Assembly (NCBI GenBank): GCA_902783745.1
Contig: CACZRY010000064.1
Coordinates: 1-14,049 of the forward strand
Origin: an uncultured Erysipelotrichaceae bacterium
GTDB taxonomy: Bacteria > Bacillota_I > Bacilli_A > Acholeplasmatales > Anaeroplasmataceae
Reading direction: 5' to 3'
Length of the DNA: 14,049 nucleotides
Part shown: piece by piece, positions 19 to 11,952 of the stretch
Layout: each line of letters begins with the position of its first letter
How positions within the stretch are numbered: position 1 is the stretch's first letter
The notes under the pieces: generated by a model
Seen by the model: the letters and a program-made list of their open reading frames with translations, nothing else
The model's database searches: none
What the model was told of the DNA's origin: nothing
Program-made: the position numbers and the translations under genes

Positions 19-861
19 TTAATCATTATAATATTCTCCTTCAAAAACTCTTCTTGCAGGTCCTTTCATAGTTACATTGAAATCCTCATCAACTATAATT
101 TCTAAAGTACCTCCAATTAAATTTACATATATAGTTTCATTAAAAGGCGAAATTCCATTAATACATGCTGCACAAACACTTGCACAAGCACCTGTACCAC
201 ATGCATAAGTCTCTCCGCTTCCTCTTTCATAAACTCTCATGTTTAAATGATTTTTATCTATGATTTCTATAAATTCAGTATTAACCTTAGTTGGAAATAA
301 TTTATTATTTTCAAACACAGGTCCTATTTTATCAAGTTCTAATGAATTAATATTATTCATAAAAATGACGCAATGGGGATTACCCATAGATACCGCAGTG
401 ATATCATAATAATCCCCATTGATTAAACATTTATGATTTATATATTTTTTATCTTCTTGAAGTGGAATAACTTTTGGTTCAAATGATGCTTGTCCCATAT
501 CAACACTTACAAATTCTATTTTATTATTATCATTTGGATATAATTTTAAATATTTAATGCCACTTTTAGTTTCAATTGATAAATCTAGTTTATCTGTATA
601 TTTCTTATCATATACATATTTACCAACGCATCTAATTGCGTTACCACACATCATACCTTCACTACCATCAAGATTAAACATTCTCATTTTAAAATCTGCA
701 ACATCACTTTTGCAAATTAAAACTAATCCATCTGATCCTACACTAAAATGTCTTTTTGACATTTCAATCGCAAGTGAATTTGGGTCATCTATTACATCAT
801 CTAATTCTGATACATAAATATAATCATTTGCACAACCGTGCATTTTTGTAAATGGAATCAT
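19..861 (-). CDS. dapF: Diaminopimelate epimerase DapF
   Basis: Converts LL- to meso-diaminopimelate, the last epimerisation before lysine and the peptidoglycan cross-linking residue; a cytosolic, cofactor-independent enzyme. The 280-residue product has the family length and both halves of the two-cysteine active site: C72 in the MCGNAIRC stretch (71-78) and C221 in the ACGTGACAS stretch (220-228). The N-terminal MHGCANDY (7-14) and the GSGET motif (214-218) are also typical. The ATG overlaps the TAA of pyrG by one base (TAATG), and its AGGAGG ribosome-binding site lies inside the end of pyrG, so translation is probably coupled. It is the last gene of the minus-strand run visible here and the only one whose reaction does not involve glutamine or glutamate nitrogen directly. 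Nothing about the protein looks abnormal. Confidence 0.97.
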   Translation of the reverse strand: MIPFTKMHGCANDYIYVSELDDVIDDPNSLAIEMSKRHFSVGSDGLVLICKSDVADFKMRMFNLDGSEGMMCGNAIRCVGKYVYDKKYTDKLDLSIETKSGIKYLKLYPNDNNKIEFVSVDMGQASFEPKVIPLQEDKKYINHKCLINGDYYDITAVSMGNPHCVIFMNNINSLELDKIGPVFENNKLFPTKVNTEFIEIIDKNHLNMRVYERGSGETYACGTGACASVCAACINGISPFNETIYVNLIGGTLEIIVDEDFNVTMKGPARRVFEGEYYND

Positions 862-2468
862 TATGATAACCTCCTTTTTAAGCTCTCACAAATAAATTTT
901 TTAAATAAAGGATGAGCTTTATTTGGTCTTGATTTGAACTCAGGATGATATTGTACTCCTAAGAAGAATGGTTCTTCTTTAATTTCAATTGCTTCAACTA
1001 ATCTATTATCAACTGAAGTACCTGAAATTGTAATTCCGGCTTTTTCAAATTGACTTCTATAATCATTATTAAATTCATATCTATGACGATGACGTTCATG
1101 TATTAATTCGTTTTGATAGCATTTATATAAAGTAGTATCATGATCTTTTATACTGCATGGATATGAACCTAATCTTAATGTTCCACCTTTGTTTATTTCA
1201 TCGTTTTGTCCTGGCATAAAGTGTATTACTAAATTCTTAGATGTTGGATCAAATTCAAATGAATTTGCGTCACTAAGCCCTAAAATATCTCTTGCAGCCT
1301 CAATAGTAAATATTTGCATACCTAAGCAAATACCAAAATATGGTATATGATTTAATCTTGCATACTTACAAGCTAAAATCATACCTGATATTCCTCTATT
1401 ACCAAATCCACCTGGAACAATAATTCCATCTGAATTAGATAATATAGAATCAACATTATCTTCAGTAATTGTATCTGAATCTACCCAATTAATATTTACT
1501 GTAGTCTCATTTTCAAAGCCAGCGTGGTTTAATGCTTCAACAACAGATAAATAAGCATCATGTAATAATGTATATTTACCTACTAATGAAATTCTTACCT
1601 CGTATTTTAAATTATTTATTCTTGAAACTAAATCATACCAGTCATGTAAGTCTGGTTCTTTAGCATCTAAATGAAGCTTTCTTACAACAATATTTGCAAG
1701 GCCTTCCTCTTCTAGCATTAAAGGTGCTTCATATAAAGAATTTAATGTCACGTTTGAAATAACACAATCCTCTTCTACATCACAAAATAAGGCAACCTTT
1801 TTAAATATAGATTCATCTAAAATCTTTTCATCGCTTCTTAGGATTATAATATCAGGAGATATTCCCATACCTCTTAATTCCTTACAAGAATGCTGTGCAG
1901 GCTTAGATTTATGTTCTTTTGATGCTTTTAGGTATGGTACTAATACAATATGTATATATAACGCATCACCTAATACCTCACGACCAATTTGTCTTATAGC
2001 TTCTAGGAATGGTTGAGATTCAATATCACCTGTTGTACCACCTATTTCTGTAATTACAACATCAGCATCAGTTATTTCACTTAATTTATAAATAAAGTTT
2101 TTTATTTCGTTAGTAACATTAGGAATATATTGTACAGTATGACCTAAATATTCCCCTTTTCTTTCTTTATCTAATACTTTTTCAAATACCTTACCTGTTG
2201 TAAGATTTGAATATTTATTTAAATCTTCATCAATAAATCTTTCATAATGACCTAAATCTAAGTCAGTTTCAGTACCATCTTCAGTAACATAAACCTCACC
2301 ATGCTGGTAAGGTGACATTGTACCAGGATCTACATTGATATAAGGATCTAGTTTTTGGGATGCTACCTTTAAGCCTCGTGCTTTTAATAATCTTCCTAAG
2401 CTTGCGGCAGTAATTCCTTTTCCAAGGCCAGATACTACACCTCCTGTTACAAATATAAATTTACTCAT
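861..2468 (-). CDS. pyrG: CTP synthase PyrG (glutamine-hydrolysing)
   Basis: Aminates UTP to CTP using ATP and the amide nitrogen of glutamine. The 535-residue protein has the normal length and two-domain order. The N-terminal synthetase domain (about 1-270) has the P-loop-like [10 protein letters not shown] (9-18) and the [13 protein letters not shown] region (41-53). The class I glutamine amidotransferase domain (about 290-535) has the FGICLGMQ nucleophile elbow with C381 and the catalytic H508 and E510 in YHPE. The [10 protein letters not shown] motif (458-467) is also conserved. The gene starts 13 bases after the ANTAR gene, with AGAGGTG as ribosome-binding site, and overlaps dapF by one base. 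Its place downstream of glutamate synthase and glnA suggests that CTP formation is tied to glutamine supply, which is an inference from context. Confidence 0.98.
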
Positions 2469-2481
2469 CTTAATTTCACCT

Positions 2482-3069
2482 CTATTTTTTATGATAAATA
2501 TCTATAATATGCTTAGCTAAATCTATCTTCTTTACTCTTAAGTCCATACTTGTCTTTTCAAGCCACTTATGAACCTCATCTTCTGTATAGTTCTTATTCT
2601 TAATTAATAATAGTTTAGCTTCATTTATTAATCTAATTTCTTTCATTCTTTCATCTAATGATTTCTTAGGCTCACTAGATTTGCTCATATTTATCTTTTC
2701 TAGAGTAGATGTTATTAATCTTAATGCTTGTATAAATGTTTCTTTTGATGTAGGTTTTGAAATAGTTAAAATACCAAATTCATTAGTCTTTTCATATACA
2801 TCAGCATATATGTTTTCTTTTGCTAAAACTAAAACACCAAGCTTTAATCTATAAGATACATCAATTGAAAAAAGTACTCCTAATTCATCCTTTAATGGAG
2901 TATTTACTATGACTATATCAAAACTTCTTTCAATCAATAATCTTTTAGCTTCACTTGCTGATGATACAACAACTAATTCATAATTTCTTGGGTCAAGGAT
3001 GCTTTTTATTGTTTCATTGAATTTTTCAAATTGTGATACTAATAATATCTTATAAATAAATTCTTTCAT
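2482..3069 (-). CDS. ANTAR-domain RNA-binding antitermination regulator with degenerate receiver
   Basis: A 195-residue two-domain regulator. Residues 1-123 look like a response-regulator receiver fold but lack its chemistry: the acidic pair after the first strand is replaced (KILLVSQF, 7-14) and the phospho-acceptor position is N56 ([10 protein letters not shown], 50-59). The distal lysine K105 in SKP is kept. A short linker leads to a C-terminal ANTAR three-helix domain (about 138-192) with the usual pattern, including A151-K152, [10 protein letters not shown] (170-179) and LAKHII (184-189). ANTAR proteins bind hexaloop RNA hairpins and prevent intrinsic termination in leaders. A related protein beside glnA in solventogenic Clostridium has been called NitR, from memory. 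It sits between glnA and pyrG with an AGGAGG site. Likely targets are the leaders at 7718-7784 and 7964-8015. The loss of the aspartate suggests control other than phosphorylation. Confidence 0.9.
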
Positions 3070-3100: not shown

Positions 3101-4288
3101 CTATTTTAAATAGTATTCTAAAGTTTCTTTATCTAAATATTTGTTAATAAATTCACTATTTCTTGCAATTTCTTTTGCTTCATCTAATGTCTTAGGAAGC
3201 ATTTCGAAATTAATATTTTCTTTCCTGTTTGCATCTAAAGTTTTATCTAGACTTAAATTATTTAAAACTCCATCCATTGCAGCATAAATAATTAATGCGA
3301 ATGCAATATATGGATTGCATGTTGAATCAGGACTTCTTAATTCACTTCTTTTATAAATGCCCTTTGCGGCAGGAATACGAACAAGAACTGTACGATTTTC
3401 TTCTCCGTATGAAATAAATTTAGGTGCGTTCATTTTACCTAATCTATTGTATGAATAATCCTTACAATTTAAGAATGCAGTTATTTCTTTAATATGCTTT
3501 ATTACACCAGCTGTACCAGCTTCATTTAGTGATACATCACCTTTTGATAAAGAGAAATTAATATGAAAACCACTACCAGGTCTACCTTCTAAAGGTTTTG
3601 GCTCAAATGAAGCATAAAGACCATTACGTTCCGCAACTGTTCTTACAACACCTTTAAATGTTGTTGCATCATCTGCAGCCTCAAGTGGGAAAGAACACAT
3701 GTAATCAATTTCATTTTGACCAGGTCCTTCCTCGTGATGAGAACCTTCTGGTATTAAATCCATTTCCTCTAATGTTAAACAAATTTCTCTTCTAACATTT
3801 TCACCTTTATCCTTAGGTGCAATATCCATATAACCTGCATTATCATATGGAATTAAAGTTGGTTCACCTTCTTCATCTCTTTTAAATAAATAGAATTCAA
3901 TTTCTGAGCCAAATTTAAATGTAACTCCTTCTTTTGAAGCATATTCAATAGCTTCTTTTAAAATCCTTCTTGAATCATTTACAAATAAAGTTCCATCTGG
4001 ATTTTTAATATCACAATACATTCTAACAACCTTACCTGATAATGGACGCCATGGTAATAGTGTTAATGTATCTGGATTTGGGAATAAGAATAAATCTGAT
4101 TTTATTCCTGTATTAAATCCCTTGATTGCAAATGCATCAATAGAAATTCCATAATTAAATGCTTTATCAAGCTCATGTGGCATAATAGAGATATTTTTTT
4201 GTTCACCATAAATATCTGTAAATGCTAATCTTATGAACTTAACATCTTCTTCCTTACAATATTCAATAACTGATTCTTTATCGTACAT
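3101..4288 (-). CDS. glnA: Glutamine synthetase type I, short form
   Basis: ATP-dependent ligation of ammonia to glutamate. Type I signatures are clear: GSEIEFYLF (127-135, metal ligands E129 and E131), HHEEGPGQNEID (184-195, E186 and E193), GSGFHIN (238-244, H242), NRTVLVRIP (298-306) and ELRSPDSTCNPYIA (316-329). At 395 residues it is some 50 or more shorter than usual GSI proteins and stops soon after the catalytic core. No adenylylation-site NLYDL motif is present. The active-site flap is unusual: where most GSI proteins read VPGYEAP this one reads GKMNAP (284-289), one residue shorter and with asparagine in place of the flap glutamate. The usual DGSSIEGF is DAFAIKGF (51-58). It may be a divergent GS lineage of Clostridia or a related gamma-glutamyl ligase; the glutamate synthase/ANTAR context favours glutamine synthetase. 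An AGGAGG site precedes the ATG. Confidence 0.88.
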   Translation of the reverse strand: MYDKESVIEYCKEEDVKFIRLAFTDIYGEQKNISIMPHELDKAFNYGISIDAFAIKGFNTGIKSDLFLFPNPDTLTLLPWRPLSGKVVRMYCDIKNPDGTLFVNDSRRILKEAIEYASKEGVTFKFGSEIEFYLFKRDEEGEPTLIPYDNAGYMDIAPKDKGENVRREICLTLEEMDLIPEGSHHEEGPGQNEIDYMCSFPLEAADDATTFKGVVRTVAERNGLYASFEPKPLEGRPGSGFHINFSLSKGDVSLNEAGTAGVIKHIKEITAFLNCKDYSYNRLGKMNAPKFISYGEENRTVLVRIPAAKGIYKRSELRSPDSTCNPYIAFALIIYAAMDGVLNNLSLDKTLDANRKENINFEMLPKTLDEAKEIARNSEFINKYLDKETLEYYLK

Positions 4289-4350: not shown

Positions 4351-4367
4351 ATTAGTATTATACTAAT
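4351..4367 (-). other. AT-rich stem-loop overlapping the stop codon of the GXGXG gene
   Basis: A 7-bp perfect inverted repeat (ATTAGTA / TACTAAT, 3-base loop) covers the TAG stop and is followed by a few Ts on the minus strand. It has only one G-C pair per arm and a short T-run, so it would be at best a weak, leaky terminator or a 3' processing element between the glutamate synthase genes and glnA. Confidence 0.3.
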
Positions 4368-5082
4368 TTGCAACATAATGGGCCTTAAATGGATTTGAGC
4401 TATTTGGAGTTACAACACTAAATCCATCCTTAATTAAATCATCTAAATTCAAATTAAAGTATTTAGAAAACTTTTTTAAGTAAGGCATAATTTCTAATAA
4501 ATCCTCTTCTTTAGCTTCATTAATTAATAATCTTTCAGATTTATTTTTATATTTACCTCTTATATATACCTTACCACCATACATACCCTTAAATGAGAAA
4601 TCACCTATTATTTCCTTAGGATTATCTAATCCTAATACAACAATATATCCACCAGCCATATATTCAGCTAAAAAAGAACCAGCCTTATTTCCAATAATCA
4701 TTACAGGCTTTTTATCTAAATAAGCCTTCATATGAATACCACTTCTATAACCAGTGTTTCCTCTTACATATATTTCACCGCCACGCATTGCGTATCCTAA
4801 TGCATCACCAGCATTACCATGGATAATTATTTCACCTTTATTCATAGTATCCCCTGTTGCATCAGAAACATTACCATATACTTCAATTTTAGCGCCATCC
4901 ATATACGCACCAAGTGCATTACCAGGAATACCATTAGTAATTTTTATATTTTTATCTACTAATGCATCACCAATAAATCTATCTCCTAAAGTATTTATAA
5001 CCTCAATATCCTTATATTTTGAATTTTTAATTGCTTGATTTAAATCCTTATAGCTTTTAAAGCTTCTTGCATCAATAACCAT
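4363..5082 (-). CDS. Glutamate synthase GXGXG-domain protein (archaeal-type third subunit)
   Basis: Equivalent to the C-terminal right-handed beta-helix domain of bacterial GltB, here a separate 239-residue protein. Repeats of G-x-x-G-x-x-x-G form run through residues 50-175: GIPGNALGAYMDGA, GNVSDATGDTMNKG, GNAGDALGYAMRGG and GNTGYRSGIHM. These are the diagnostic turns of this fold. In glutamate synthase the domain is structural and helps join the glutaminase and synthase sites; it has no catalytic residues of its own. It begins 8 bases after the FMN-domain gene with an AGGTGA ribosome-binding site, so the two are surely co-translated from one message. GXGXG domains also occur in formylmethanofuran dehydrogenase subunit C, but the neighbours here settle the assignment. 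Archaeal-style naming would be gltB3 or glxC. Confidence 0.93.
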   Translation of the reverse strand: MVIDARSFKSYKDLNQAIKNSKYKDIEVINTLGDRFIGDALVDKNIKITNGIPGNALGAYMDGAKIEVYGNVSDATGDTMNKGEIIIHGNAGDALGYAMRGGEIYVRGNTGYRSGIHMKAYLDKKPVMIIGNKAGSFLAEYMAGGYIVVLGLDNPKEIIGDFSFKGMYGGKVYIRGKYKNKSERLLINEAKEEDLLEIMPYLKKFSKYFNLNLDDLIKDGFSVVTPNSSNPFKAHYVAN

Positions 5083-5090
5083 AAATTCAC

Positions 5091-6602
5091 CTACATTCCT
5101 GCATGATTAATGCCTAATATATCAAGTTCAACTTGATTCAAACCTAAACCCCTAAGCATCAATCTATTACCTTTTAGGGTTTCTATAGAATTAATTCCCA
5201 TACCACCCATCATTTCTTTTATTTCATATGTCCAGGCATTGATTAGATTTACTAATCTTTCTTCAGCAATCTTAGGATCTAATCTCTTAGTTAAGTTTTC
5301 ATCTTGTGTAGCAATACCCCAATTACATTTACCACTTTGACAATTTCTACATAAATGGCATCCCATTGCAAGTAATGCAGCTGTACCAATATATACTGCA
5401 TCCGCACCTAAAGCTATTGCTTTTATTACGTCTGCAGAGGAACGAATTGAACCAGCAGCAACAAGTGAAATATTATTTCTAATACCTTCTTCTCTTAATC
5501 TTTGATCTACAGATGCTAACGCAAGCTCAATAGGAATACCTACGTTATCTCTTATTCTTGTAGGTGCAGCACCTGTACCTCCTCTATAACCATCAATTAC
5601 AATAATATCCGCACCACTTCTTGCGATACCTGAGGCAATAGCTGCGATATTATGTACTGCTGCAACCTTAACTATAATTGGCTTTTTAAAATTAGTAGCT
5701 TCCTTTAATGAATCAACTAATTGTTTTAAATCTTCAATAGAATAAATATCATGGTGTGGTGCTGGAGATATTGCATCAGAACCTTCTGGTACCATTCTTG
5801 TTTTAGAAACATCACCAACCATCTTCTTACCAGGTAAGTGACCACCAATACCAGGCTTTGCACCTTGTCCCATTTTTATTTCAATCGCAGAACCAGAATC
5901 TAAATAATCCTTATAAACACCGAATCTACCTGATGCTACTTGAACAATTGTATTATCCTTAAAGCCTTCTAAATCTTGGTGTAAGCCACCCTCACCTGTG
6001 TTATAAAAAGTTCCTAATCTTTTTGCAGCACCTGCAAGTGCTTTATGTGCATTAAGTGATATTGCGCCATAAGACATACCACCAAACATAATAGGAGTGT
6101 CAATTTTTAATTGAGGCTCCATATCTAAATTTATACTTCCATCAAGATTTCTTTTTATATGTGTAGGCTTTTTGCCTAAGAATACTCTTGTTTCCATTGG
6201 TTCTCTTAATGGATCAATTGATGGATTTGTTACTTGTGATGCATTAATTAAAATTCTATCAAAGTATGAAGGCATTTGGTTAGGATTACCCATAGATGAT
6301 AATAATACACCACCAGTATTAGATTGCTTATATATTTCTTCTACAAGGTTAGATGTCCAGTTTGCATTTCTTTTAATGCTACAATCAGATTCAACTATCT
6401 TTAAGCATTTCATAGGACATACTGCAACACATCTCATACAAGATACACATTTTTCATCATGTGCAAGCATAATATGGCCTTTTTCATTATAATAATGAAC
6501 CTCATTTGCACACTCACGTTCACATAAACGACATCTTGAGCATATATCATTATTTCTTACTATTTCATATTTAGGATAAAAATATCCACTATAATCTTTC
6601 AT
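5091..6602 (-). CDS. gltB: Ferredoxin-type glutamate synthase, FMN-binding synthase subunit
   Basis: Catalyses reductive transfer of ammonia to 2-oxoglutarate, giving glutamate. The N-terminus (about 15-70) carries two 4Fe-4S motifs, C21-x2-C24-x2-C27-x3-C31 and C52-x2-C55-x2-C58-x3-C62. Residues of about 140-495 form the FMN TIM-barrel of glutamate synthase, with MFGGMSYGAIS (172-182), GEGGLHQD (203-210), GQGAKPGIGGHLPG (245-258), SPAPHHDIYS (279-288), DGYRGGTGAAP (337-347) and AAGSIRSSAD (382-391). The 3Fe-4S ligands are C415, C421 and C426, in the family spacing Cx5Cx4C, before GIATQ. At 503 residues it is the archaeal-type split form, not the roughly 1500-residue bacterial GltB. The extra ferredoxin domain implies electrons arrive through iron-sulfur centres; no gltD-like NADPH subunit is in the window. 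The ATG overlaps the upstream TAA by one base. Confidence 0.96.
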   Translation of the reverse strand: MKDYSGYFYPKYEIVRNNDICSRCRLCERECANEVHYYNEKGHIMLAHDEKCVSCMRCVAVCPMKCLKIVESDCSIKRNANWTSNLVEEIYKQSNTGGVLLSSMGNPNQMPSYFDRILINASQVTNPSIDPLREPMETRVFLGKKPTHIKRNLDGSINLDMEPQLKIDTPIMFGGMSYGAISLNAHKALAGAAKRLGTFYNTGEGGLHQDLEGFKDNTIVQVASGRFGVYKDYLDSGSAIEIKMGQGAKPGIGGHLPGKKMVGDVSKTRMVPEGSDAISPAPHHDIYSIEDLKQLVDSLKEATNFKKPIIVKVAAVHNIAAIASGIARSGADIIVIDGYRGGTGAAPTRIRDNVGIPIELALASVDQRLREEGIRNNISLVAAGSIRSSADVIKAIALGADAVYIGTAALLAMGCHLCRNCQSGKCNWGIATQDENLTKRLDPKIAEERLVNLINAWTYEIKEMMGGMGINSIETLKGNRLMLRGLGLNQVELDILGINHAGM

Positions 6603-7696
6603 TAGTACATGCCCTCCTTTACCTTTATAATAACAGGCTCTCCACCCTTAGGAGCCCATATTTCATCTAAATCACTTCTCATGCTTCTTAAAGCACATTC
6701 TTCACTTGCTAGATAAACAACATCATCTTTTTCTGATACAACTAAATTTCTTAATTTTAATCTATCATTTAATGCCATAAGTCCACCTTTAAATCCTAAA
6801 ATAATAGAAAATGGACCAGTTATTAATAAAGATGCATAATTATTTCTTAAGAAAGTAATTTTCTTCTTTTCATCTAAATCAGTCATTTCATCGATTTGTT
6901 CCCAAAATGGTGCTGCAACAACTGTTGCAAATTCATTTAGTGATAATCCTTCTCTTCTTAATAAGAAATCAGCAATATATGTAATAACTTCAGTATCAGT
7001 TTTTAATGAACATTTATAACCAAACATTTCTATAAATCTTCTATTTGCATCATAGCTTGATATTTCACCATTATGTACAATAGTATAATCAAGTAACGCA
7101 AATGGGTGAGCACCACCCCACCAACCAGGTGTATTTGTTGGATATCTACCATGTGCTGTCCACATATATCCTTTATATTCATCTAATCTATAGAATTCTC
7201 CTACCTCTTCAGGATAACCAACAGCCTTAAATACACCCATATTTTTACCAGATGAGAATACATATCCTCCATCAAATGTATCATTAATCTTTGTAACAAC
7301 TCTCATTGTATATTCATCTTCTGTTAATTGAGATTCTCTTAATTTGTTCGCATTAGGCTTTACAAAATAACGCCAAATTAATGGTTCATCCTTTATAGCC
7401 TTAATTTTTTTAGTTGGAATTCTTGAATAGTCAACTATATCAAATACTTCATTTAAATATGCTTCAGTCTTTGTTTTTATATTATTATCATTATAAAATA
7501 CGTGTAATGCATAATAATCTTTATATTCAGGATATATTCCATATCCAGAAAAGCCACCGCCTAAGCCATTTGATCTGTCATGCATTGTTGCCATTGCATC
7601 AACAATCTTCTTACCAGACATTAATTCACCATTTTTAGATATCATTGCAGCAATTGCACATCCTGCAGGGATTCTAATTTCTCCTTCTTTTTTCAT
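6602..7696 (-). CDS. Glutamate synthase glutaminase-domain subunit (class II amidotransferase)
   Basis: Releases ammonia from glutamine for the adjacent synthase subunit. Class II (Ntn) amidotransferase motifs are present in order: GRYPTN (183-188), HNGEI (208-212) and KTDTE (232-236). The probable nucleophile is C13 in IPAGCAIAAM, so 12 residues would have to be removed to expose it as residue 1; the start is set by AAGGAGG at 7704-7710, seven bases before the ATG. Cys-Ala here differs from the common Cys-Gly of this family. The protein is 364 residues, the size of the stand-alone archaeal-type GltB1 (glxB). It is the first gene of the minus-strand operon and lies behind the attenuated leader at 7718-7784. 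Its stop overlaps the next start (TAATG). Confidence is high for the family and moderate for the processing. Confidence 0.93.
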   Translation of the reverse strand: MKKEGEIRIPAGCAIAAMISKNGELMSGKKIVDAMATMHDRSNGLGGGFSGYGIYPEYKDYYALHVFYNDNNIKTKTEAYLNEVFDIVDYSRIPTKKIKAIKDEPLIWRYFVKPNANKLRESQLTEDEYTMRVVTKINDTFDGGYVFSSGKNMGVFKAVGYPEEVGEFYRLDEYKGYMWTAHGRYPTNTPGWWGGAHPFALLDYTIVHNGEISSYDANRRFIEMFGYKCSLKTDTEVITYIADFLLRREGLSLNEFATVVAAPFWEQIDEMTDLDEKKKITFLRNNYASLLITGPFSIILGFKGGLMALNDRLKLRNLVVSEKDDVVYLASEECALRSMRSDLDEIWAPKGGEPVIIKVKEGMY

Positions 7697-7717: not shown

Positions 7718-7780
7718 AAAAAGGGCGCTCACCCAATAATTAGAGGGTAAAGTACCCCTAAAAATTAGGTGAACGTCCTT
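7718..7780 (-). terminator. Leader intrinsic terminator (attenuator) before the glutamate synthase operon
   Basis: Transcribed toward the operon, 7764-7780 pairs with 7721-7737 over 17 positions with one mismatch (A7776 opposite C7725), followed by TTTTT at about 7718-7722. The apex holds a second hairpin at 7741-7760 (TAGGGGTA / TACCC-T-CTA, loop CTT). It lies between the promoter and the ribosome-binding site of the first gene, so as drawn it would stop transcription before any coding sequence. Its 5' arm overlaps the hexaloop hairpin 7771-7784, giving two mutually exclusive folds. Confidence 0.8.
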
Positions 7781-7784
7781 GTTC
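7771..7784 (-). promoter_or_regulatory. Candidate ANTAR-binding hexaloop (antiterminator) in gltB leader
   Basis: On the minus strand GAAC (7784-7781) and GUUC (7774-7771) form a 4-bp stem around the six-base loop AAGGAC (7780-7775). The loop has A at position 1 and G at position 4, the conserved positions of ANTAR hexaloops. Eleven of its 14 bases belong to the 5' arm of the terminator, so a protein holding this hairpin would block termination. This is the expected position for the second hairpin of the ANTAR motif; no first hairpin fits between the predicted start site and here. Confidence 0.5.
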
Positions 7785-7790
7785 CTCTAT

Positions 7791-7819
7791 AATTTATCAC
7801 TTTTAAATTCGATAGTCAA
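7791..7819 (-). promoter_or_regulatory. Promoter of the glutamate synthase-glnA-ANTAR-pyrG-dapF operon
   Basis: Minus-strand -35 TTGACT (7814-7819), exactly 17 bases, then -10 TAAATT (7791-7796) preceded by TGA, an extended -10 (TGn). Transcription would begin near 7783-7786, only a base or two from the foot of the hexaloop hairpin. The -10 matches the consensus at only four of six positions. Confidence 0.6.
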
Positions 7820-7912: not shown

Positions 7913-7941
7913 TTGACAACTAATTTTTTTAGGATTAGAAT
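7913..7941 (+). promoter_or_regulatory. Promoter of the glnN-amt operon
   Basis: A consensus -35 TTGACA (7913-7918), a 17-base spacer, and -10 TAGAAT (7936-7941, five of six). Transcription should start near 7948. The -35 lies inside a small palindrome, GTTGACAAC (7912-7920). This is a strong vegetative-type promoter, consistent with control being exerted after initiation at the terminator just downstream. Confidence 0.8.
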
Positions 7942-7962: not shown

Positions 7963-8015
7963 GAGGCAAAGGAGCCTGATGTATTATGCATCTTATGCTC
8001 CCTTGCCTCTTTTTT
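7963..8015 (+). terminator. Leader intrinsic terminator (attenuator) before glnN
   Basis: GAGGCAA (7963-7969) pairs with TTGCCTC (8003-8009). After one A-C mismatch GGAGC (7971-7975) pairs with GCTCC (7997-8001), and GATG (7978-7981) can pair with CATC (7989-7992) at the apex. Six Ts follow at 8010-8015. It is a complete intrinsic terminator between the promoter and the glnN ribosome-binding site, so full-length glnN message requires readthrough. Confidence 0.88.
7964..7977 (+). promoter_or_regulatory. Candidate ANTAR-binding hexaloop (antiterminator) in glnN leader
   Basis: AGGC (7964-7967) and GCCT (7974-7977) form a perfect 4-bp stem around the loop AAAGGA (7968-7973), again with A at position 1 and G at position 4. 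The hairpin occupies almost the whole 5' arm of the terminator, so the two folds exclude each other. It has the same relation to its terminator as the hexaloop in the divergent leader. The roughly 15 transcribed bases upstream hold no comparable second hairpin. Confidence 0.5.
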
Positions 8016-8035: not shown

Positions 8036-10117
8036 ATGAAACAGGTACAAGATTATTTTGGATGTTTGGTGTTTGATGACAAAGTTATGAAGTCAAGATT
8101 ATCTAGTGATGTTTATAAATCATTAAGAAAAACAATAGATAATGACACTGAATTAGATTTATCCGTTGCAAATTCTGTAGCGCAAGCTATGAAGGATTGG
8201 GCAGTTGAAAACGGAGCAACACATTATACACATTGGTTCCAGCCAATGACAGGTACAACTGCTGAAAAGCATGATAGCTTTATTTCACCTGATGCAGATG
8301 GAAGAGTTATTATGGAATTTAAAGGTAAGGAATTAGTAAAAGGTGAGCCTGATGCATCATCATTCCCATCAGGTGGTCTTAGAGCTACTGCTGAAGCAAG
8401 AGGATATACTGCATGGGATCCTACATCATACGCTTTTATTAAAGACAAATGCTTATGTATTCCAACAGCATTCTGTAGTTATGGTGGTGAAGCATTAGAT
8501 AAGAAGACACCACTTCTTCGTTCAATGCAAGCATTATCAAAACAAGCAATAAGAATTTTAAAATTATTCGGTCATACTGATATTAAAAATGTTAAGACTA
8601 CAGTAGGTCCAGAACAAGAATACTTCTTAATTGATAAAAAGTATTATGATAAAAGACCTGATTTAATTTATACAGGTAGAACATTATTTGGTGCAATGTC
8701 TCCTAAGGGACAAGAATTAGATGATCATTATTTTGGTATTATTAAGCCAAGAGTTCAAGCATTTATGAATGAATTAAATGAAGAATTATGGAAGCTTGGT
8801 ATTCTTGCAAAAACTGAACATAATGAGGTTGCACCAGCACAGCATGAGCTTGCTCCTATATTCTCAACAACAAATGTTGCTGCAGACCATAATCAAATTA
8901 CAATGGAGCTTATGCAAAAAATCGCTAAGAAACATGATTTAGTTTGTTTACTTCATGAAAAACCATTTAAGGGTGTTAACGGAAGTGGAAAGCACAATAA
9001 CTGGTCTATGTCTACAAATACCGGCCTAAATCTATTAGAACCAGGTGCTACTCCATGGGATAATGCACAATTCTTATTATTCCTAGTTTCTGTTATTAAA
9101 GCAGTTGATGAATATCAGGATTTATTAAGAATTAGCTGTGCTTCTGCTTCAAACGACTTCCGTTTAGGTGCAAACGAGGCACCTCCTGCAATCATTTCTA
9201 TTTTCTTAGGTTCTGAATTACAAAATGTATTAGATCATATTGAAACAGGTAAGGCATTAAAGAGTAATGGTAGCTCATTCTTAAAGATTGGTGCGGATGT
9301 ATTACCACCATTACCAAAGGATTCAACAGATAGAAACAGAACTTCTCCTTTCGCATTTACAGGAAACAAATTTGAATTCCGTGCATTAGGTTCATCCGAT
9401 TCAATCTCTTGTTGTAACATTATGTTAAATACTGCGGTTGCACAAGTATTAAAGGAATTTGCTGATACTTTAGAAAAATCTACTGATTTTGATAAGGATT
9501 TACATGAAATCATTAAGGATACAATTATTAAACATAAAAGAATTATCTTTAATGGAAATGGATATGATGAAGCTTGGGTTTCTGAGGCTAAAAAGCGTGG
9601 ATTATTAAATTTAGCATCTACACCTGAAGCATTACCATATTATATTGATCCAAAGAATATTAAATTATTTAAGGATAATAATATATATTCAGATGCTGAA
9701 ATTCATGCAAGATATGAAATTGGTCAAGAACATTATTGTAAGGTTGTAAATATTGAAGCTAAAACTGCAATTGATATGACTTTAAAAGGTTATTTACCAA
9801 CTATTTCAAAATATACTTATTCTTTAACTAAAAACATTGAAATGAAAAAGAATTTAGCTATTGATACTACATATGAGGAAGCTGAATTAAATGTTTTATC
9901 TAATGGATTAAGAGATGCATTTGTTGAAGTAACTTCTTTAAAGGGTGCATTAACTCATATTCCATCAAAAATTGAAGAGGCTTCACTATATTATAGAAAC
10001 AAAGTCTTACCTAAGATGGAATCATTAAGAAATATTATTGATTCTTTAGAAGAACATGTAGATAAGGAAGTATGGCCATATCCTACATATGGTGACTTAT
10101 TATTCGGAGTAAGATAA
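8036..10117 (+). CDS. glnN: Glutamine synthetase type III (GlnN)
   Basis: ATP-dependent synthesis of glutamine from glutamate and ammonia, by the large dodecameric GS family known from Bacteroides, cyanobacteria and Clostridia. From the start at 8036 the protein has 693 residues, within the GSIII range and far above GSI. Motifs with that start are GPEQEYF (191-197), [12 protein letters not shown] (263-274), [19 protein letters not shown] (306-324) and [16 protein letters not shown] (434-449, R449). These give the metal, glutamate and nucleotide sites typical of GSIII, with a C-terminal helical region after about residue 560. It is the first gene of the plus-strand operon, downstream of the attenuator at 7963-8015 and 23 bases before the amt-PII gene. 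With glnA at 3101-4288 the organism carries two unrelated-length glutamine synthetases within 5 kb. Confidence 0.96.
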
Positions 10118-10140: not shown

Positions 10141-11952
10141 ATGAACATTAACGACATTAGTGGCGTTTTTGGCGGTACTGGTCTTTGGGCAATCATTGGC
10201 TGTGCATTAATATTCTTTATGCAAGCTGGATTTGCCATGGTAGAAACAGGTTTTACACGTGCTAAAAATGCTGGAAATATTATGATGAAGAACCTAATGG
10301 ACTTCTGTATTGGTACTGTAACATTTACATTACTTGGTGGTGGATTATTATTAGGTGAAGATGCATTAGGAGGATTCTTAGGATTACCTACTATGGGTGT
10401 ATTCACTGATTTTAGTAATTTCGATTGGTTATCATTTATTTTTAACTTATTATTCTGTGCAACTGCATCTACTATTGTATCTGGTGCTGTTGCTGAACGT
10501 ACTAAATTTAGTGCTTATTGTATTTATTCAGCTATTATTTCATTAATTATTTACCCTATTGAAGCTCACTGGGTTTGGGGAGGCGGATGGCTTTCTCAAT
10601 TAGCTATTACTTGGGGTATTAATGAAGGTAACTGGATTGGATTTATTGATATTTCTGGTTCTGCTGCTATCCACTCTGTTGGTGGTGTATGTGCTTTAAT
10701 TGGTGCATGGATGATTGGCGCAAGAACAGGTAAATATATTAGAGATGATGCTGGTAAGGTTACAAAGATTAACGCATTCCAAGCACACTCAATTCCACTT
10801 GGTGCACTTGGTGTATTTATTCTATGGTTTGGCTGGTATGGATTCAACTCAGCTCCAGCTTCTACTATTGAAGAGGTTGCACAAATATTTGCAACAACAA
10901 CAATTGCACCTGCAGTTGCAACATGTTCATGCTTATTATTAACTTGGATTAAGAATGGTAAGCCTGATGTATCTATGTGCTTAAATGCATCTTTAGCAGG
11001 TCTTGTTGCAATAACTGCTGGATGTCATGCAGTTGATGCAATCGGTGCTGCAATAATTGGTGTAATATCAGGTATATTAGTTTATGCATCAGTAATTATT
11101 ATTGATACAAAATTACATATTGATGATCCAGCAGGTGCTATTTCAGTACACTTTGTAAATGGTGTATTTGGTACTATTGCTGCAGGATTATTTGCAACAT
11201 CAAAATCATTCTTAGGAATTGATGGTCCTATTTATGCATTAATCCATGGTACTTCTTTTGGCCATGGTATGGCAGTATTAGGAATTCAGCTAATCGGTAT
11301 TGTATCAATTGTTTTATGGGCAGGAGTTCTAATTTTTATAACATTCTTCATCCTAAAGAAAACAGTTGGTATTAGATGCAGTGTTGAAGATGAAATTAAG
11401 GGTATGGATATATCTGAACATGGTCTTCTATCAGCATATGCAGATTTCGTTCCTGCAGTAGATCCAATTGATTATTCACTTGATAAGAACTATAAAGCAT
11501 TAATTGTATCTGGAGATACTCCATTACCTGAAGCTGTACCAGTTTCAGTTGTTGAAGATGTAACTGATAGTAAATCGCCTGAGGTTACAACAGGATTCAG
11601 TAAAGTATCTATTATATGCAAAGAAAGAATGCTTGAATCATTAAAGGAATCTTTAATGGCAATTGGAATTACAGGTATGACTGTAACACACGTAATGGGT
11701 TGTGGTGTTGAAAAAGGACAACCAGAATACTACCGTGGTGTTAAGGTTGAAGCAACATTACTTCCAAAAGTACAAGTTGATGTAGTTGTTGCAAAAGTCC
11801 CAGTTAGACAAGTTATAGATGTTGCTAAAAAGACATTATACACTGGTCATATTGGAGATGGAAAGATTTTTGTATATAACGTTATTAACGCAGTTAAGGT
11901 TAGAACTGGTGAGGAAGGTTACCAGGCATTACAAGATTTACAAGAATCTTAA
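10141..11952 (+). CDS. Ammonium transporter with fused C-terminal PII (GlnB/GlnK) domain
   Basis: Takes up ammonium and senses nitrogen status in one 603-residue chain. Residues of about 1-415 are the Amt/MEP channel with about 11 membrane spans: F105 and F226 align with the twin gate phenylalanines, D170 with the ammonium-site aspartate, and H178 and H337 with the twin pore histidines. LGVFILWFGWYGFN (223-236) is diagnostic. A hydrophilic linker of about 65 residues follows, then a complete PII domain at about 486-600. It has the T-loop GQPEYYRG (526-533; Y531 aligns with the uridylylated tyrosine of GlnB), LPKVQVDVVV, and the nucleotide-site motifs IGDGKIFV and RTGEEG. The stop and frame are intact, so this is a true fusion, placing the usually soluble PII blocker permanently at the cytoplasmic face. 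AGGAGGGG precedes the ATG. Confidence 0.95.
   Translation: MNINDISGVFGGTGLWAIIGCALIFFMQAGFAMVETGFTRAKNAGNIMMKNLMDFCIGTVTFTLLGGGLLLGEDALGGFLGLPTMGVFTDFSNFDWLSFIFNLLFCATASTIVSGAVAERTKFSAYCIYSAIISLIIYPIEAHWVWGGGWLSQLAITWGINEGNWIGFIDISGSAAIHSVGGVCALIGAWMIGARTGKYIRDDAGKVTKINAFQAHSIPLGALGVFILWFGWYGFNSAPASTIEEVAQIFATTTIAPAVATCSCLLLTWIKNGKPDVSMCLNASLAGLVAITAGCHAVDAIGAAIIGVISGILVYASVIIIDTKLHIDDPAGAISVHFVNGVFGTIAAGLFATSKSFLGIDGPIYALIHGTSFGHGMAVLGIQLIGIVSIVLWAGVLIFITFFILKKTVGIRCSVEDEIKGMDISEHGLLSAYADFVPAVDPIDYSLDKNYKALIVSGDTPLPEAVPVSVVEDVTDSKSPEVTTGFSKVSIICKERMLESLKESLMAIGITGMTVTHVMGCGVEKGQPEYYRGVKVEATLLPKVQVDVVVAKVPVRQVIDVAKKTLYTGHIGDGKIFVYNVINAVKVRTGEEGYQALQDLQES

Follow-up and report, generated by a model that had tools for sequence, protein, structure and literature searches.

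The locus described here raises the question whether two divergent gene rows can be governed by a single RNA-binding protein acting on the leaders between them, and what such a protein would recognise there. The window, i.e. the whole stretch of 14,049 nucleotides analysed, stems from a rumen bacterium with a genome of 1.44 Mb (81.8% complete) and consists of two divergent gene rows with two leaders in between (Table 1). The plus row comprises glnN, an ammonium transporter-P-II fusion, an asparagine synthetase, and the start of a last, partial gene which we take to be purF-like. The minus row contains a glutaminase subunit, the glutamate synthase core, a GXGXG subunit, a glutamine synthetase (GS)-like protein, an ANTAR protein, CTP synthase, and beyond it a presumably dapF-like gene. 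Glutamate synthase is thereby made up of three proteins (4363-7696: glutaminase, ferredoxin-like plus synthase core, GXGXG), and in several relatives it is encoded by a single open frame of about 1500 amino acids.

Table 1. Features of the two leaders and gene rows, in coordinates of the window
Feature	Position	Strand	Remark
Predicted promoter of the glutaminase-headed row (TTGACT, 17 nt, TAAATT, TG before -10)	7791-7819	-	similar distance in relatives
Putative single hexaloop antiterminator hairpin GAAC-AAGGAC-GTTC	7771-7784	-	begins 6 nt past -10, at the predicted transcript start
Competing predicted intrinsic terminator stem-loop	7721-7780	-	
Terminator U-tract	7718-7722	-	
Class II glutaminase subunit	6602-7696	-	first gene behind minus leader
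Glutamate synthase core	5091-6602	-	ferredoxin-like and glutamate synthase domains
Glutamate synthase GXGXG-domain subunit	4363-5082	-	
Short glutamine-synthetase-like protein	3101-4288	-	395 aa; Asn at flap-Glu position; candidate sensor partner
ANTAR regulator	2482-3069	-	degenerate receiver domain (Asn56 at phospho-Asp position, no acidic pair)
CTP synthase (pyrG)	861-2468	-	downstream of ANTAR gene, same operon-like row
Predicted glnN promoter (TTGACA, 17 nt, TAGAAT)	7913-7941	+	
Putative single hexaloop antiterminator hairpin AGGC-AAAGGA-GCCT	7964-7977	+	22 nt past -10 (other measured glnN leaders 9-13 nt)
Competing predicted intrinsic terminator of glnN leader	7963-8009	+	T-run 8010-8015
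Type III glutamine synthetase glnN	8036-10117	+	first gene behind plus leader
Ammonium transporter fused to P-II domain	10141-11952	+	single protein

The initial annotation had claimed that the 5' arm of the minus-leader terminator can refold into a hairpin with a six-base loop carrying A at position 1 and G at position 4 (A1/G4). This hairpin was found; it has a 4-bp GAAC/GTTC stem, and its loop and its 3' arm both fall within the predicted terminator stem. The plus leader, with an unrelated stem, agrees with the further claim that both leaders have the same mutually exclusive layout. The minus leader (74 nt) folds with -33.7 kcal/mol (z -6.54) and an 83-nt stretch of the plus leader with -30.9 kcal/mol (z -6.83), 0 of 200 shuffles being as good in either case. 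The isolated hexaloop hairpins are worth just -1.6 (minus) and -4.4 kcal/mol (plus) and would therefore need help to win over the terminator. In both leaders the ribosome binding site lies about 8 nt past the T-run. An Rfam search of the window at permissive E-values gave five matches, all under the gathering score. Both leaders carry what is expected of an ANTAR RNA, i.e. an A1/G4 hexaloop, a stem of at least three pairs and overlap with a predicted intrinsic terminator. Judged by their sequences they form a real, conserved switch, which is most likely a one-hexaloop variant of the ANTAR kind.

Comparison of the two leaders in related genomes, proposed earlier as a check, revealed that they are conserved side by side. 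In the loci of near relatives a scan for a promoter, an A1/G4 hexaloop and an overlapping terminator yielded 33 distinct sites, 20 with an AGGC-type (glnN-type) and 13 with a GAAC stem; its promoter filter missed the glnN leaders of the window and of the sister genome G015, in which the -10 box is too far off (22 nt in the window). In rescans that carried gene labels, the AGGC-type sites precede glnN. The GAAC-type sites precede glutamate synthase or a glutaminase subunit, or, in four genomes (G021, G036, G040, G043), directly the GS-like gene, and their hairpin begins mostly 6 nt past -10, at the expected transcript start. Within each kind the stems are almost invariant, the exception being a glnN stem AAGC/GCTT in G033, which is a two-sided change. 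In all 33 sites the unselected loop position 2 is A, position 5 is G or A, and the loop G4 has a C or U as its partner in the predicted terminator; positions 3 and 6 vary freely. The sister genome G015 (completeness listed as 100) has a single ANTAR match and the same leader pair.

Plain attenuation or a constitutive terminator might produce such leaders without any ANTAR protein, the hexaloop being a by-product of the terminator arm or a stabiliser of the 5' end of the RNA. The bases of the hairpin do belong to the terminator, so that conservation of the terminator alone would keep part of them. Both stem arms and the loop letters are kept, however, while the remaining terminator varies, which argues against this explanation, and so do the distant relatives. 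A profile scan with the ANTAR alignment gave 186 loci, of which the best 80 are the named loci used here; these best 80 include Acholeplasmatales, Anaeroplasma, Ruminococcaceae, Lachnospiraceae, Eubacterium, Acetobacterium, Romboutsia, Scatolibacter, Spirochaetales, and others. In these best 80 of 186 loci plus the window, 82 unique hexaloop-terminator leaders were found in 47 of the 81 sources. The loop reads AAnG(A/G) in 75 of the 82, which are spread over 43 sources; in the other 38 sources, some of which may not extend to the leaders, no leader with this typical loop was found. In a control in which loop letters 1 and 4 were left free and a 4-pair stem, a six-base loop, an overlapping terminator and a gene behind it were required, A..G occurred 69 times and each of the 15 other letter combinations 0-9 times (80 named loci, best of 186; 2,521,162 bases over both strands, related loci not thinned). 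The commonest loop was AAAGGC with 26 of the 69 A..G matches. The earlier argument that the layout is unlikely to arise by chance is thus borne out.

Absence of covariation in the hexaloop had been named as an outcome that would refute the idea, and the result spoke in its favour. Covariation is clear across distant leaders, as 68 distinct hairpins have two-sided changes in 116 cells compared with 32 in shuffles; within the close relatives of each gene the stem hardly varies. The scans behind the 33 sites, the 82 and 75 leaders and the 68 hairpins required A1, G4 and at least three pairs, and the 68-hairpin set additionally AAnG(A/G); in these scans loop positions 3 and 6 and stem pairs 4 and beyond were unselected, and so was loop position 2 outside the 68-hairpin set. 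Of the 68 hairpins, 61 form pair 4 and 44 form pair 5, neither of which was selected for, with 32 and 24 two-sided changes, respectively. With the stems covarying, the loop letters controlled for and the leaders co-occurring with ANTAR genes as described below, a terminator that functions without ANTAR is considered very improbable.

By best match to the window proteins, the genes after the 75 leaders mostly serve nitrogen metabolism or use glutamine, namely glnN (30), glutaminase-type (13), glutamate synthase (8), GS-like (8), pyrG (3), amt (3), and asnB (1, with 27% identity), nine being unlabelled; labels below 35% identity are uncertain (L240, L243, L250, L261, L203), including two of the 13 glutaminase-type genes. 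Six unlabelled protein starts were compared with Pfam, giving one adenylosuccinate synthetase, one class I glutamine amidotransferase, nothing in three cases, and a resemblance to aspartate-ammonia ligase under the Pfam cut-off in the sixth. Some unlabelled scan matches (e.g. L241 10606, L255, L284) resemble chance occurrences. Searched with Rfam at gathering score, 7 of the 80 named loci gave a single tRNA and nothing else. In one locus (L248, 440 and 496) two single-hexaloop terminators stand in tandem before an ammonium transporter gene.

The occurrence of the leaders follows that of ANTAR genes. A covariance model (R1) was built from leaders of relatives which it then searched. Among 60 genomes, the own genome included, 28 have an ANTAR gene, and the model matched with E <1e-3 in 26 of these 28 as compared with none of the 32 without it (Fisher p 5e-15, without correction for kinship and with some of these genomes having supplied leaders for the model). 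Within the genus the figures are 19 of 20 with ANTAR and 0 of 7 without (Fisher 9e-6, kinship not corrected). For G013, G029 and G035, which belong to these 26, the model hit the first of the two hexaloop hairpins in a glnA leader. In G011, which has a type III GS and lacks an ANTAR gene, no such leader was found. When 296 genomes of the class were searched with R1, five matched at 1e-4, adding G191 and G287, neither of which was used in model building; G191 has a back-to-back leader pair, and in G287 the glnA leader contains two hexaloops, of which the second has a very short stem. The own genome gave 25 model matches at E up to 1, among which the true glnN leader of the window itself has only E 0.0104, so weak targets may exist there as well. 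Four weak further matches (C191, C21, C92, C13) were rejected as by eye they have no hexaloop before a terminator.

The sole ANTAR gene detected in the genome (81.8% complete) lies within the row headed by the minus leader, and the regulator would hence control itself as well. That both halves of the cluster answer to one RNA-binding protein, as the initial annotation had suggested, is by this genomic evidence well supported. The C-terminal ANTAR domain of the protein scores 48.4 bits, over the Pfam cut-off of 27.3. Its receiver domain reaches 21.1 bits with the Response_reg model, below the cut-off of 30.2 and thus outside the phosphorylatable receivers. Among the window protein and the best 80 of 186 relatives the position of the phosphorylated aspartate is N in 65 of 81 (Asn56 in the window) and D in 8; of the acidic pair the first position is acidic in 0 of 81 and the second in 1. 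The receiver domain is therefore degenerate, and the signal is probably not phosphorylation. A sequence search for relatives with a solved structure returned only Rv1626 and EutV. The residues of EutV which contact the loop were taken from section 21 of PMC8934654 and mapped by a HMMER alignment, on which the following counts rest. All 81 proteins retain the equivalents of Lys149, Glu160 and Met172, and in all 81 Tyr164, which stacks on G4, is replaced by a His that one of the two search patterns had included. At the positions of Arg168 and Arg177 none of the 81 proteins has Arg, and at that of Arg175 it is present in 34.

What goes beyond the initial annotation is the number of hexaloops, one per leader instead of a tandem pair. 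ANTAR antiterminators are defined in the parts of PMC3369931 (Ramesh 2012) used here as two hairpins, P1 and P2, and according to the same parts eutP of E. faecalis could no longer be induced once P1 had been deleted. Extending the P1-P2 linker also did away with antitermination in vitro. These findings speak against a one-hexaloop model, since by the known mechanism one hexaloop may not suffice. The leaders could then be of the ordinary two-hexaloop form with a P1 that went unrecognised, either because its loop is imperfect or not hexameric or because a longer transcript starts upstream. A P1 plus P2 arrangement with a linker of about 2-25 nt was looked for and not found here, and no second hexaloop was found in the scan upstream of either window leader. 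In none of the 75 leaders was an upstream A1/G4 hexaloop with at least three pairs, one of them G-C, found within 33 nt (shuffles 1.9). If no G-C pair is demanded, candidates appear in 6 of 75, which might be counted in favour of a hidden P1, though it equals the shuffles (6.06). By eye, a possible GCGT/ACGC hairpin is seen upstream in the glnN leader of the window, and other, non-A1/G4 hairpins lie upstream in some Acetobacterium and Ruminococcaceae leaders. Among them the Acetobacterium-type glnN leaders (L251, L252, L253; Acetobacterium, Eubacteriaceae) have a GUGG/CCAC hairpin at the place of P1, ahead of the hexaloop.

In many of the leaders the position of the predicted promoter leaves little room for a P1. 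A promoter match ends 4-12 nt before the hairpin in 48 of the 75 leaders, the other 27 falling outside this rule, so that in these 48 the hairpin begins at or a few bases past the expected transcript start, in line with the 6-nt distance of the GAAC-type. The leader scan did find real P1 hairpins in six two-hexaloop leaders. Within the same genus and family it detected them before the ordinary 450-aa glnA (L183, L184, L189, L196) and before more distant glnN genes (L206, identical with G006, and L207, identical with G004). Five further two-hexaloop glnA leaders seen by eye (G002, G008, G013, G026, G029) were missed because their second stem was too short for the filter, so the scan caught 6 of the 11 counted by eye. 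An unrecognised P1 is therefore regarded as unlikely, and ANTAR-RNA leaders with one recognisable hexaloop appear to be a new variant of the described dual-hairpin form. A second hexaloop between the first one and the T-run was also considered and rejected (3 of 75 when a G-C pair is demanded, as against 3.2 in shuffles); without the G-C rule there are 9 of 75 such downstream candidates (shuffles 4.6, maximum 12). In the two-hexaloop leaders the P1 loops (AAnGGn) resemble the single loops and the P2 loops are by eye mostly AnnGTn, the two seeming to differ at position 5. A strict rule by which His-type ANTAR proteins go with one hexaloop and Tyr-type with two was dropped owing to exceptions on both sides: G014, G018 and G034 have a one-hexaloop glnN leader and only a Tyr-type ANTAR was found in them, and G035 and G287 have a two-hexaloop or two-hexaloop-like glnA leader and a His-type ANTAR.

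The leaders share with the dual-hexaloop systems EutV/eutP, NasR/nasF and AmiR/amiE (PMC3369931) the short stem, the six-base A1/G4 loop, mutual exclusion with an intrinsic terminator, an ANTAR gene in the genome and nitrogen genes downstream. They differ from them in having one hexaloop, positioned at the predicted transcript start or close to it, which itself overlaps the terminator. ANTAR RNAs preceding glutamate and glutamine synthase genes are already mentioned in passages of PMC3369931. Two published searches for ANTAR RNAs, that paper among them, demanded two hairpins by their method descriptions, and single-hexaloop switches would be missed by them. That one hexaloop can be bound is indicated by in vitro work on EutV and NasR: in the portions of Walshe 2022 (PMC8934654) consulted the hexaloops are contacted singly by an ANTAR dimer and single-hexaloop sites may exist, and in those of PMC7496416 NasR binds a single hairpin with poorer affinity. 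Walshe 2022 expected single sites where a race with the polymerase is absent, whereas the sites found here look like attenuators. Among the papers listed in searches of the open-licence literature no report of natural single-hexaloop attenuators was found; the original NitR study, which is outside that scope, may contain part of it. The nitR gene is an ANTAR gene adjoining a glutamine synthetase gene. According to parts of PMC6316151 the ANTAR protein NitR of Clostridium saccharobutylicum, capable of antitermination, induces GS/GOGAT genes under nitrogen limitation, and nitR is also mentioned in a passage of PMC4676874.

The reading preferred here, held with good though not full confidence, is that both leaders act as transcription attenuators, which the ANTAR protein of the minus row would read via one hexaloop each instead of a P1-P2 pair. 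Without bound ANTAR protein the nascent RNA would fold into the terminator and transcription would halt before the predicted operon. The active ANTAR protein, presumably under nitrogen limitation, would hold the one hexaloop hairpin close to the 5' end of the emerging transcript, withholding its bases from the terminator, and RNA polymerase would continue into glnN and amt-PII in one direction and into the genes of glutamate synthase, the GS-like protein, ANTAR and pyrG in the other. The two alternative folds, their conservation and covariation and their place behind predicted promoters can be read directly from the sequences, and so can the lack of a further A1/G4 hexaloop beyond chance level, the co-occurrence with ANTAR genes and the adjacency of GS and ANTAR genes; we infer binding, the direction of control, the nitrogen signal and the sensor role, as well as operon structure and transcript starts. 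A bound hairpin might conversely serve as a repressor site, like the actinobacterial and mycobacterial ANTAR RNAs covering the ribosome site. Such sites are described in parts of PMC8164766 where the hairpin overlaps the ribosome binding site or start codon. Here it overlaps the terminator, the ribosome binding site lies past the T-run, and binding would block the terminator, all of which makes repression scarcely credible.

The attenuator reading leaves the question how nitrogen would be sensed, and for this the gene next to the ANTAR gene is the best candidate. In 78 of 80 loci (best 80 of 186), and likewise in the window, the ANTAR gene is immediately preceded by a GS gene of the same strand, an arrangement resembling that of NitR-type GS/GOGAT regulators. 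Unlike that of C. saccharobutylicum NitR, the adjacent GS is mostly degenerate here. In this comparison we take the catalytic flap Glu and four further glutamates, the latter as metal ligands, to have their usual roles in GS. Nine ordinary GlnA proteins of relatives, used as reference, all have the flap Glu (9 of 9). In the 79 GS neighbours (78 loci and the window) the flap residue is not Glu in 67, Glu in 9, and a gap in 3. Eight of the nine with flap Glu are 424-442 aa long (Acetobacterium, Romboutsia, others), and 61 of the 79 have a length of 380-419 aa. The conserved Asn of NGSGMH is changed to Pro in 60 of 79, and the four putative metal-ligand glutamates are kept in 65 to 73 of 79. The window protein, with Asn at the flap position, scores 305.3 bits with NCBIfam GlnA, below the cut-off of 429.15, and thus lies outside type I GS by this measure. 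The adjacency of its gene to the ANTAR gene makes the GS-like protein a candidate partner comparable to those of NasS-NasT (in the parts of PMC3795266 used) and AmiC-AmiR, in which the ANTAR protein is held by a ligand-binding partner. By analogy, a GS-like sensor for ANTAR would also resemble GS with TnrA in Bacillus, as described in parts of PMC6316151.

Taken further, and with somewhat less than even confidence, these leaders could belong to a wide nitrogen switch of anaerobic Firmicutes and some spirochaetes. In it a dead GS would sense glutamine or ammonium and signal by contact to a dead-receiver ANTAR protein, which would open, via single 5'-end hexaloops without a recruitment hairpin, a regulon of genes that make or use glutamine (glnN, glutamate synthase, amt, pyrG, probably purA, guaA and asparagine synthetases). 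Should single-hexaloop switches work, recruitment of the protein by P1 and blocking of the terminator by P2 would not hold as a general model, and the sufficiency of one hexaloop would become testable with natural leaders, some of them from cultured strains. A GS-like partner would give a direct handle on nitrogen sensing in these bacteria.
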